Source: a virus. From it: 35,876 nt of DNA. Position numbers and translations under genes: made by a program. Under the pieces are notes generated by a model. It worked only from the letters and a program-made list of their open reading frames with translations. It was not told the DNA's origin and searched no databases. Where the stretch lies: IMG/VR virus record IMGVR_UViG_3300022689_000147, positions 1-35,876 of that record; one strand, given 5' to 3'. Positions 2,462 through 25,753 of this stretch are shown piece by piece (the first letter of the stretch is position 1; every line of letters starts with the position of its first letter).

Positions 2462-4333
2462 TTATACAATCTCACAATTATTTCCTGAACAGGCTAATTC
2501 ACCACTTAAATCTGTATTGTCTTGTAATTCAACTATTTTAGTTAAATCAATATTAGTCAATGTAGATACTAACTCATTATACTTTTCTTCTGTAATATCT
2601 TCAAATGGTGCTTGTTGATAACTACCATTATCATAAGGTAATACAGACAGTCCATTATATACATCTTTATTTTTCCACATCCACTCACCTACAGTTTCCC
2701 ATTCATCTGGTTTAATAGATACAGTTGCTGATACATTATGAGTATTTTGTCCATCAACATGACCTGGTTTAACCCAATCATTGGAAACTTTTTTCACTCT
2801 TTCCAACATTTCAATAGCACTTTCATGTCTTGTTACAGATCCTTTTGGAGCTCTTTGAGGAATAGAAATTACAGCCATTTCTTTAGGTCTAAATATTTCA
2901 TCTTCTACTAATTCAGGATGATTAATAGATAAGTAAGTATAAATTGCTTCATTCTTACCTACTCTAATTCTACGAATATAATAATCATTATGCCACGCAT
3001 GTATACCTGAACTAGTACCAAGCGTTAAACTTGTAGTACCTGCTGGCTTAACACATGTTAATCTAGCAGCAGGTTTAATATTCAACACTTTAGCAATTTC
3101 CGTATTAGTTTTTTTAATATGTTCTGTAACTTCAGTCAAATCATAATTAAAGATTTTCATTGAAGCAATACCAGTTATTGATACTCCCAGTAATGCATCT
3201 CTTTCAGTAGCTTTTTGCCACTTGTGAGATAAGTAATGGAAATCTGTATAACTAGCTTGAAGAGTACCTATCACTGTAGCAGCTTTAGCTCTTTCAATGA
3301 AATCTTCTTTACTCTCAATATTTGACCCATTAATCTCAGTTAAATTACAGAACTGATATGGTCTTAAAGCAATTTCACAACAAGGATTTGTTCCCCAATC
3401 TTTATCATTTGATAAATAAAATCCAGGTTCTCCTGAGTTAGATGCTTCAATCTTTTTCCATAGATCTAAAAATTGACCTTTGGTTACTCTATGTCTTAGT
3501 ATTACAGCAGAGTTATTAGCTCTACCTCTTTGTGGATTAAGCTCCCACCAATTACCTGACTTACATGCTATCATTTCATCATCATCAAATGAGAATAAAG
3601 AAATAAGAGCTGCTCTTCTAATTCCACCTGCAAGTACAGCATCAGCAATATGACATTGTATGTCATGAGCTTGTATTGGTGTCAATTTAGTACCAGTAGG
3701 AACACTATCCAATATTTTAGTTATGTTATATATACAATCTTTTAGAGGTTGAGGCCCAGGTGCTTTACCACCACTAGTAACTAGTAATGCGCCTTTTGGT
3801 CTAATATCATCATATATAAATCTTGGCTTGGATTTACCAAAAAAATAAGCTTTCATAAGAACTTTAATAGCATCAGCCCATCCTTCAATACTATCTCCAA
3901 TAACAAATCTTCTTGATCTGTCAGCAGTACCTTTTACTGTAGGTAATTTTTCAACATGATGTCTTTGTACACTGTAACCAACACCAGTACCACCTAACAG
4001 TAAGAACATAGTTTCATGGAACGCAGTCCAATCTTCTACTGGCAAATAAGCACAGTTAAAAATTCTACTTGGACTCAATTGTATTGGTCGTCCAGCAAAT
4101 TGCATTGACCTCATTGAAGGCAATACTTTTTTAGATCTTACAAAATTATTATACACATTGGTAATTTCGTCCTTTAATTTAGGATACTGATCTATATGCA
4201 TTTGCATATTACGATCTACCAATTCGTCCCAAGTTTCACGTCTTTGTAACTCAGGTAAAAATTTAGCATACTTCATGTATACTGTAATGTCAGATAAAAT
4301 CTCAACACTTTTGTCAACTTCACTTTTAATCAT
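2462..4333 (-). CDS. nrdJ: Adenosylcobalamin-dependent ribonucleoside-triphosphate reductase, monomeric class II
   Basis: 623 aa; reduces ribonucleotides (triphosphates in the family prototype) to deoxynucleotides using B12 and a thiyl radical. Alignment by eye with the Lactobacillus leichmannii enzyme: C94 (its C119), N316-P-C318-C-E320 (catalytic C408 and E410) and C329 (C419) keep the same spacing, LLGGTGVGYSVQ lies at about 112-123, and the C-terminal redox pair is C615/C620 (C-x4-C, as C731/C736). It is shorter than the about 740-aa prototype. The B12 need implies a cobalamin-supplying host or habitat; no cobalamin riboswitch was recognised upstream. The gene follows a long-stem hairpin at 4370-4413 and starts at ATG 4333. 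Confidence 0.93.
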   Translation of the reverse strand: MIKSEVDKSVEILSDITVYMKYAKFLPELQRRETWDELVDRNMQMHIDQYPKLKDEITNVYNNFVRSKKVLPSMRSMQFAGRPIQLSPSRIFNCAYLPVEDWTAFHETMFLLLGGTGVGYSVQRHHVEKLPTVKGTADRSRRFVIGDSIEGWADAIKVLMKAYFFGKSKPRFIYDDIRPKGALLVTSGGKAPGPQPLKDCIYNITKILDSVPTGTKLTPIQAHDIQCHIADAVLAGGIRRAALISLFSFDDDEMIACKSGNWWELNPQRGRANNSAVILRHRVTKGQFLDLWKKIEASNSGEPGFYLSNDKDWGTNPCCEIALRPYQFCNLTEINGSNIESKEDFIERAKAATVIGTLQASYTDFHYLSHKWQKATERDALLGVSITGIASMKIFNYDLTEVTEHIKKTNTEIAKVLNIKPAARLTCVKPAGTTSLTLGTSSGIHAWHNDYYIRRIRVGKNEAIYTYLSINHPELVEDEIFRPKEMAVISIPQRAPKGSVTRHESAIEMLERVKKVSNDWVKPGHVDGQNTHNVSATVSIKPDEWETVGEWMWKNKDVYNGLSVLPYDNGSYQQAPFEDITEEKYNELVSTLTNIDLTKIVELQDNTDLSGELACSGNNCEIV

Positions 4334-24335: not shown

Positions 24336-24435
24336 ATCTCATGAGAGGATTCGAACCTCTATTTTAATACTGTTCTTTAACACTAATTCAAAAAATATTT
24401 TTAGTATTACGTAATACCTCTTATACTACATGAGA
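24336..24435 (-). tRNA. tRNA-like gene with about 28 extra nt in the anticodon loop
   Basis: Acceptor TCTCATG/CATGAGA is perfect, the T arm is AGAGG-TTCGAAT-CCTCT, and a D arm with GG is present. A 7-bp perfect stem TAATACT/AGTATTA stands where the anticodon stem should be, but it encloses 31 nt (24361-24411 region) instead of a 7-nt loop. Total length is 100 nt. No anticodon can be assigned. Either a minimal intron-like insertion or a decayed tRNA. Confidence 0.6.
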
Positions 24436-24716: not shown

Positions 24717-25210
24717 TGTTTGCAATATTTATTGTTTTGTTGTTTTATTATGAACTTATTCATATCTTGTGGACCTAGTAGGACTCGAACCTACACTCCC
24801 ACTGCTTATGAGGCAGGAATTTTCACCAATTAAACTATAGGTCCATGAAAAATTGTATAATATGTCAAAATAAATTAACAACTACACAAGTTAAATATTG
24901 TTCTAATAATTGTAAACAAAAAGCTCATTATAATAAGCATAAAACAAACACCAACTCTACATATTCTCAATACAAACGAGGAGTAGAAAGAAAACTAGAA
25001 TTAGTAAATAGTATAGGTGGTGTTTGTTCAAAATGCGGATATAATAAGAATCTAGCAGCACTGCATTTTCATCATTTAAAAGATAAGAAATTTGGTATAG
25101 ATATTAGAAAAATATCTAACACTAAAATGCTTACTCTTAAAGAAGAAGTTGTAAAATGCATACTATTATGTGCAAATTGCCATGCTGAGGAACATAATCC
25201 TCACATGAAC
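24717..25210. mobile_element. Insertion in tRNA anticodon loop: tRNA(CAT) plus HNH gene
   Basis: About 494 nt between the two halves of a tRNA gene. It holds a complete tRNA(CAT) and, on the opposite strand, an HNH endonuclease gene that starts one base beyond the tRNA 5' end. Exact edges depend on the lost anticodon. No group I intron core that I can recognise. Most likely created by HNH-driven homing into a tRNA array. Confidence 0.65.
24770..24844 (-). tRNA. tRNA with CAT anticodon (Met, or Ile2 if lysidine-modified)
   Basis: Acceptor GGACCTA/TAGGTCC, T arm GTAGG-TTCGAGT-CCTAC, anticodon loop CTCATAA reading CAT. The initiator tRNA is elsewhere (25756), so this is elongator Met or the AUA-reading Ile2. 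It lies inside the insertion that splits a neighbouring tRNA. Confidence 0.88.
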
Positions 25211-25225
25211 ATCAGTTCTCTCTAA
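24845..25225 (+). CDS. HNH endonuclease, only plus-strand gene
   Basis: 126 aa. N-terminal treble-clef-like zinc site C4xxC7 and C19xxxC23, then the HNH core: GGVCSKCGYNKNL (C61, C64), HFHH (74-77), and LLCANCHAEEH (C109, C112, H113, H117). A DNA endonuclease expected to cut a tRNA-gene target for homing. The ATG is adjacent to the tRNA(CAT) 5' end, and the final codons (NISSL-stop) are read from the 5' half of the split tRNA, showing it invaded that gene. Every other gene in the window is on the minus strand. Confidence 0.85.
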   Translation: MKNCIICQNKLTTTQVKYCSNNCKQKAHYNKHKTNTNSTYSQYKRGVERKLELVNSIGGVCSKCGYNKNLAALHFHHLKDKKFGIDIRKISNTKMLTLKEEVVKCILLCANCHAEEHNPHMNISSL

Positions 25226-25248: not shown

Positions 25249-25359
25249 TTACATCTCTTTGAATTTTCCACCATTATTTATTCTATCTATCATTTCTTTA
25301 ACTAAAATGCCAATTGACGTTATAATAATTATGACAAATAATATTGTTGCGGTATACAT
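25249..25359 (-). CDS. 36-aa single-pass membrane peptide
   Basis: ATG 25359 to TAA 25249-25251: MYTATILFVIIIITSIGILV then a charged tail (KEMIDRINNGGKFKEM). One TM helix at about 3-20. Lies between the tmRNA terminator and the split tRNA 5' half. Coding status rests on the clean hydrophobic/charged pattern; function unknown. Confidence 0.45.
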   Translation of the reverse strand: MYTATILFVIIIITSIGILVKEMIDRINNGGKFKEM

Positions 25360-25385
25360 ATTATATAGTTTTTATTTATTCATTT

Positions 25386-25415
25386 TAATTAAAGAGGGAG
25401 ATTTCGTTCTCCCTC
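25386..25415 (-). terminator. Terminator after tmRNA
   Basis: GAGGGAGA (25394-25401) and TCTCCCTC (25408-25415) form an 8-bp stem with a 6-nt loop, then TTTAATT on the minus strand. Ends the tmRNA coding piece. Confidence 0.85.
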
Positions 25416-25675
25416 AAATAACGTGCTTACGCCGCCAGTCTAACTGGTTGCGGAGCAATAGAAACAACTTTAGTGTCGTTTATTGTAATATCCTCCATTT
25501 AACATAACCTACATAGTAATCCAATCAAAACCAGTCACGCCCATGTATTTGTAATTAAAGGTTTGCACTAAGCTTTAAAACTATTACCTAACTTTAATTA
25601 CACCATAATTGGTTGTGTGGACATGGTGGGTATCGAACCCACGTCTTGAAAAACCTTCAATTATAAGAAGATATT
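25416..25675 (-). ncRNA. ssrA: Permuted (two-piece) tmRNA
   Basis: On the minus strand the 3' acceptor piece comes first: T arm GTGGG-TTCGATA-CCCAC (25626-25642) and acceptor CATGTCC plus ACA (25625-25616). After 73-76 nt, containing an inverted repeat GTAATTAAAG/CTTTAATTAC (25551-25560 with 25592-25601), follows the 5' piece starting GGGCGTGACTGGTTTTGA at 25542. GGGCGTG pairs with CATGTCC over seven positions (two G-T). The tag frame ends NDTKVVSIAPQPVRLAA and stop at 25427-25429, in a CCAGT/ACTGG hairpin. tmRNA frees stalled ribosomes and tags the peptide for proteolysis. The order is that of two-piece tmRNAs of alphaproteobacteria. The resume codon and pseudoknots are not assigned. Confidence 0.75.
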
Positions 25676-25676
25676 G

Positions 25677-25753
25677 AATGCGTGACAGGATTTGAACCTG
25701 CGACCTCCCTTATGTTTATGGAATAGGGCGCTCTACCACTGAGCTACACACAT
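25677..25753 (-). tRNA. tRNA-like gene with 12-nt anticodon loop
   Basis: Acceptor ATGTGTG/CACGCAT, D arm GCTC/GAGC, T arm GCAGG-TTCAAAT-CCTGT are all normal. The anticodon stem CCCTA/AAGGG closes a loop TTCCATAAACAT, about 5 nt longer than usual (77 nt overall, D loop only 7). If read as positions 32-36, TTCCA gives Trp (CCA), but a normal Trp tRNA exists at 26268. Shares TAAACAT with the aberrant tRNA at 30014. Confidence 0.75.

Follow-up and report, generated by a model that had tools for sequence, protein, structure and literature searches.

A circularly permuted tmRNA gene, probably of a Bacteroidota-phage lineage, within the tRNA array of a virus record

The stretch of DNA analysed here (the window) is a 35,876-base IMG/VR virus record, likely a fragment, with a dense array of tRNA genes on its minus strand (22 by ARAGORN, more by Rfam). 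Within this array lies a tmRNA gene in circularly permuted, two-piece form (Table 1). An earlier note, made from the letters of the sequence alone, had proposed such a phage-borne gene, and the two tmRNA searches that bear on it confirm that it is genuine. ARAGORN predicts a permuted tmRNA (25336-25708, -; tag DTKVVSIAPQPVRLAA), and the Rfam model RF04321 (tmRNA_permuted) matches 25427-25678 (-) over its full length with 53.8 bits (E 6e-8), above its curated cut-off of 47 bits. ARAGORN called 0 tmRNAs and 0 tRNAs when the window was shuffled 150 times with dinucleotides preserved, which rules out a chance origin of the call. The note had pointed to the alphaproteobacterial and cyanobacterial Rfam models; it is the permuted family RF04321 that responds, whereas among RF01849-RF01851 neither alpha_tmRNA nor cyano_tmRNA is listed over its cut-off in the window (lower overlapping matches of the same clan being omitted from the listing), and beta_tmRNA reaches 36.3 bits against its own cut-off of 84, with the tRNA-like domain alone matched.

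Table 1. Features of the tmRNA locus and related loci (window positions unless a locus name is given)
Feature	Position	Strand	Basis
3' (acceptor) piece	25618..25676	-	ARAGORN, RF04321, unconstrained two-piece fold, pairs kept across class
Intervening sequence, predicted to be removed in processing	25543..25617	-	Sequence, fold
5' (coding) piece	25394..25542	-	Sequence, ARAGORN, RF04321, fold; 3' end approximate
Tag reading frame DTKVVSIAPQPVRLAA + stop	25427..25477	-	ARAGORN; resume motif and related tags in class
Hairpin GAGGGAGA-ACGAAA-TCTCCCTC 3' of stop codon	25394..25415	-	Fold, comparison
tRNA gene directly adjoining acceptor piece	25677..25753	-	RF00005, 52.6 bits
SmpB/tmRNA contig loci	L278:11555-11998 (G444 91557-91982), L207:4862-5203		

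The order of the parts is as described earlier, with the acceptor end ahead of the coding piece. The acceptor piece, whose 5' end is approximate, comprises a helix strand, the T arm (GTGGG-TTCGATA-CCCAC, 25642-25626), the acceptor strand (CATGTCC, 25625-25619) and the discriminator A (A73) at 25618, all on the minus strand; CCA is absent from it. The coding piece starts with GGGCGTGACTGG at 25542 and supplies the other acceptor strand (GGGCGTG, 25542-25536), the D-loop analogue TGGTTTTGA, the resume motif, the tag and a final hairpin. The two strands pair over seven positions, five Watson-Crick and two G-U, and the G3-U70 alanine identity pair is present together with A73. The resulting tRNA-like domain has a 7-bp acceptor stem, a 5-bp T stem and a TTCGA loop, and lacks an anticodon arm. 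Folded together without constraint, the two pieces form the acceptor stem and the T arm as well as a long helix, which joins the start of the acceptor piece to the region ahead of the resume codon. This codon is GAC, preceded by UAAAC, and the tag frame ends VRLAA, again as first noted, with a small/hydrophobic C-terminus ahead of the stop.

The inverted repeat seen earlier in the intervening loop also holds up (GTAATTAAAG, 25601-25592, with CTTTAATTAC, 25560-25551), and folding places stems of unrelated sequence at the same position in the related tmRNAs of loci L220, L045 and L090 and of the phage Panino. The reading of the element behind the stop codon as a terminator fared less well. The hairpin is there, but related tmRNAs have one in the same position, and in Panino, L090, L192 and L220 it is not followed by a T run; it is therefore not simply a terminator, and we rejected that reading in its plain form. 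It appears to be, at least partly, a structural element of the RNA, and may terminate transcription as well.

The surroundings of the gene have some unusual features of their own. The adjoining tRNA has an enlarged anticodon region, with 14 nt between CCCT and AGGG, and is called by ARAGORN only with the intron option; the same applies to a tRNA-like match of 100 nt at 24336-24435 (-). The tRNA/tmRNA cluster also contains an HNH endonuclease gene, encoded on the other strand (24845-25225, +), and a second endonuclease gene (HNH/endonuclease VII type, 2022-2459) adjoins a ribonucleotide reductase gene. Both endonuclease genes are possibly homing elements. No SmpB is recognisable among the window proteins, no integrase was recognised among those scanned, and no riboswitch appears in the Rfam listing.

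Weak use of Shine-Dalgarno sequences is typical of Bacteroidota. Shine-Dalgarno-like sites precede only 1 of 32 genes in the window and 1 of 34 in Panino; on contigs carrying tmRNAs of the class described below the count is 14/297 (5%, equal to composition), versus 381/915 (42%) on contigs with other permuted tmRNAs (Fisher 2e-39). Phage records contain 89 relatives of the window primase, and all but a few belong to crAss-like, Bacteroides or Cellulophaga phages; one window protein is closest, among the isolates matched, to Cellulophaga phages. These signs therefore speak for a host that is most likely a member of the Bacteroidota, in agreement with the host suggested before. The B12-dependent ribonucleotide reductase (2462-4333, -) goes against these signs, with 65% identity to a Microcystis phage protein; we regard it as misleading and relied for the host on Shine-Dalgarno use and the primase instead.

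Relatives of the gene are not found through its genomic context. Among 28 records related by the window polymerase or by a 728-aa protein, none has the gene over the cut-off, so that conservation was sought via features of the tmRNA rather than synteny. When phage records were searched at the nucleotide level with the tmRNA region, only tRNAs matched, and scanning viral contigs for exact copies of the acceptor end of the window gene gave no match. A degenerate DNA pattern for permuted tmRNAs recovered at least 119 stretches from viral contigs. Judged by the first residue of the tag, these form a large group beginning with A (ANDE..., as in Proteobacteria) and a smaller one beginning with G or D; the smaller group has UUUUGA where the other permuted tmRNAs have UUUCGA. 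Two further scans of viral contigs with the UUUUGA signature gave 29 and 20 stretches. All these counts are conditional on the patterns used; searches with RF04321 are independent of them.

The resulting class has about 35 members, found in Bacteroidota phages or their kin, in viral contigs and in prophage-like loci of two Bacteroidota genomes. We define it by the UUUUGA D-loop analogue, a UAA(A/C)N resume motif before G, a tag starting with G or D, and a host without Shine-Dalgarno sites. Its named members include the Maribacter isolate phage Panino (PP540027.1; 62.2 bits, tag GKVMNVSFAPTVRQFA), crAssphage cr7_1 (NC_055895.1; 66.4 bits), the less certain crAssphage cr53_1, which is over the cut-off but has no ARAGORN call, and Dulem virus 42, which is below the RF04321 cut-off and has the tag GNDNNIVDYTHVA. 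A permuted copy in such a phage had been thought notable; permuted it is, and in a probable Bacteroidota phage, but it is not solitary. Among 84,980 species genomes the UUUUGA signature matched only two, both of them Bacteroidota (Carboxylicivirga sediminis and a Bacteroidales assembly); each also has an ordinary one-piece ssrA, and the neighbours of both permuted copies match phage families, as in prophages. The statement that Bacteroidota hosts carry one-piece ssrA is borne out by 40 of 41 genomes over cut-off, and a further permuted tmRNA over cut-off occurs in 1 of 395 Bacteroidota genomes (tag GKVIQMNNAPVRLAA).

The window tmRNA has every one of the defining features. Its nearest class member is 0.79 identical, Bacteroidota ssrA 0.70 and other permuted tmRNAs 0.72; because the sequence is this divergent, its membership rests jointly on the tree, the tag, the resume motif and the host signs. 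In a tree built on 72 columns it lies within a clade made up entirely of class members (support 99/89). Its tag aligns with those of L211 (GKVIQMFAQPVRLAA), L220 (GKVIQMNNAPVRLAA), L193 (DNNVISIAPLRAVA) and L210 (DAKVIKMNQPVAQRAAA), and its resume motif, AAUAAAC before G, also occurs in L090 and Dulem virus 42.

The pairing of the two pieces, on which the proposal of a two-piece RNA had been made to depend, is conserved in related phages. Over 34 sequences of the class, all 238 acceptor-stem cells and 169 of the 170 T-stem cells are paired, and several compensated pair types occur at positions outside the search pattern (six types at acceptor pair 5). All 34 members have G3-U70, although in most of them the search pattern had prescribed its U side. 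Essentially every member has a complete tag frame, with resume motif and stop, and in three pairs of members the codon differences within the tag are predominantly silent: five synonymous and no non-synonymous for L038/L183, six and three for L211/L220, five and two for L194/L204. One phage contig of 123 kb encodes, besides a permuted tmRNA with the tag GNTNYSYRMAA and 13 tRNAs, a complete SmpB of the normal family (158.8 bits); an SmpB together with a permuted tmRNA was found in 1 of the 20 records searched. The compensated pairs, the synonymous change in the tag and the SmpB-encoding phage together favour an RNA that works in trans-translation over a relic.

Integration at ssrA genes is common, and a decaying copy picked up by imprecise excision or left by use as an integration site would fit with the prophage-like loci of some class members and with the divergence of the window copy. 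However, every pair of the acceptor and T stems of the window gene is intact, as is its tag, and the lack of a recognised integrase among its scanned proteins also argues against this origin. Moreover, the permuted form is not the usual one in Bacteroidota hosts, so that a captured fragment of the host gene would not be permuted. We consider a relic hardly credible. The phage RNA could instead act as a decoy that binds host SmpB or occupies ribosomes and so dampens trans-translation by the host. There is a precedent for this in mycobacteriophage DS6A, whose tag-less tmRNA is reported to dampen host trans-translation (PMC11915505, PMC4131195), and the phage RNA would compete with the host's own for SmpB. 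Against a decoy stand the tag frame, resume motif and stop retained in essentially all members, the preservation of the peptide by synonymous change, and the SmpB that one member encodes itself; a decoy is very unlikely on these grounds.

Our preferred reading, to which we give a probability of about 0.82, is that the window carries a working phage-borne two-piece tmRNA of a Bacteroidota-phage lineage that derives from the one-piece ssrA of Bacteroidota. L214, the one-piece ssrA of the Bacteroidales assembly named above, starts with GGGGCTGTTTGGTTTTGACAGC, ends with TTTGGACGAGGGTTCGACTCCCTCCAGCTCCAC, has the resume site UAUAACU-GGC and encodes the tag GENNYALAA; the 5' GGGGCTGTTTGGTTTTGACAGC, this resume site and the T arm are common to L214 and the class, and the best identity to Bacteroidota ssrA, 0.92 over the compared columns, is that of phage locus L045. 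Class members resemble Bacteroidota one-piece ssrA in the tRNA-like domain, the resume site and the start of the tag, unlike the other phage permuted tmRNAs sampled, and for this reason a separate permutation inside Bacteroidota phages is favoured. The nearest bacterial relatives of the class are one-piece genes of Bacteroidota, and not the two-piece genes of other phages.

The competing view is that phages of other bacteria supplied a permuted tmRNA of alpha-, beta- or cyanobacterial type, and that its Bacteroidota-like features are convergent. The parts are arranged in the same way, the window sequence by itself has similar distances to the two sets, and forcing all permuted tmRNAs to a single origin lowers the log-likelihood on the 72 columns by 42 units, which is not enough for rejection (AU p = 0.112). 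On the other hand, most class members group in the tree with Bacteroidales ssrA, and the other permuted tmRNAs stand apart. The tag starts with G or D in 31/31 class members, as opposed to A in 81/87 of the other permuted tmRNAs and G in 16/46 Bacteroidota ssrA, and the UUUUGA signature and a nearly identical tRNA-like domain are common to the class and Bacteroidales ssrA. Acquisition from such phages is improbable in the light of these features. Several class members may have arisen separately. The fuller scenario, in which permutation happened independently in phages from a Bacteroidota one-piece ssrA, the gene was kept almost only in phages and prophages, the tags diverged towards a different fate of the tagged proteins, and at least one phage came to have its own SmpB, has about an even chance of being right.

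The divergence of the tags deserves separate consideration. Tags ending in LAA or MAA make up 9/31 in the class, compared to 45/46 in Bacteroidota ssrA (p 4e-11) and 68/87 in other phage permuted tmRNAs (p 2e-6), and [LV]R recurs in the class ahead of the last three residues. As the class tags have drifted from the ends used by the host, the fate of tagged proteins may differ, which we take as a hint. If this were the main role of the gene, the phage tag would replace the host degron and thereby change the protease or the rate of degradation. This is possible but doubtful, given that the window's own tag retains the usual LAA end; it is compatible with our preferred reading and does not exclude it.

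tmRNAs are processed by tRNA enzymes, charged with alanine by way of G3-U70, enter stalled ribosomes with the help of SmpB, and tag and release the unfinished protein. For the phage gene we suggest the following model. The tmRNA gene would be transcribed together with the tRNA array, and host tRNA-processing enzymes (RNase P and those of tRNA 3' processing) would cut out the intervening sequence; 3' processing of the adjoining tRNA may set the 5' end of the acceptor piece. The host would add CCA, and the two pieces would be held together by the acceptor stem and the long helix beneath it. Host AlaRS, reading G3-U70, would charge the RNA with alanine, and host SmpB and EF-Tu would deliver it to ribosomes stalled on broken mRNA, where translation would resume at GAC and append (Ala)-DTKVVSIAPQPVRLAA. 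Ribosome rescue and proteolysis tagging are thus the activities we infer for the window tmRNA; its function is most likely trans-translation during infection with host SmpB, or with the phage's own in one relative. The benefit to the phage may be that ribosomes are kept available during infection. Form and tag distinguish the phage copy from that of the host in the same cell, which would allow a direct test of what the phage gains.

Two-piece tmRNAs have been described from three bacterial lineages, the alphaproteobacteria, the betaproteobacteria and the cyanobacteria. The class shares with the permuted tmRNAs of these lineages (RF04321) the tRNA-like domain and the order of acceptor piece, intervening sequence and coding piece; it differs by UUUUGA in place of UUUCGA, the G or D at the start of the tag and the signs of a Bacteroidota host. 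With the Bacteroidota one-piece ssrA (RF00023) it has in common the tRNA-like domain, the resume site UAUAACU-GGC and a tag starting with G (as in L214), but that gene is unpermuted, has the tag GENNYALAA, and has a long region separating tag and acceptor end, which is missing from the phage gene. Phage tmRNAs as such are not new. Huge phages carry tmRNA and SmpB (PMC7162821), and in a survey of 133 unique phage tmRNA structures 53 were two-piece, 50 of them from marine or aquatic phages (PMC9004378). The Methylophilales phage Melnitz and other aquatic phages resemble the present case in that a virulent-type phage has a permuted tmRNA and also tRNA genes (PMC9004378). The Melnitz copy, however, is of alphaproteobacterial type with a glutamine riboswitch (PMC9004378), whereas the present class is of Bacteroidota type and the window has no riboswitch listed by Rfam. 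The tmRNAs of Panino (PMC11590407) and cr7_1 are likewise permuted, lie beside tRNA genes and have a related tag or resume site; the genes are annotated only as tmRNA, and the tmRNA passages of the Panino paper are silent on the permuted form (PMC11590407).

In the literature searched (openly readable main texts) we found no description of a permuted tmRNA in Bacteroidota phages. Permuted phage tmRNAs are known as a gene type; what appears to be new is a lineage with tags of its own and a probable ancestry in Bacteroidota ssrA. Standard annotation records some such genes simply as tmRNA and so hides the permuted form. If the proposed origin is true, a phage lineage derived from the host's one-piece gene would show the split of tmRNA taking place in phage genomes; there the gene is often surrounded by tRNAs, whose processing enzymes are able to cleave the precursor.

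Two minor observations concern individual phages. One of the 13 tRNAs on the SmpB-encoding 123-kb contig has the anticodon CUA and is a possible stop-codon suppressor. Cellulophaga phage Calle_1, considered as a candidate member of the class, was rejected because its tmRNA is one-piece (MT732432.1 42950-43311, L167); this tmRNA encodes a long, unusual tag, AQIEANMEAVNAILNLEVAVGV.
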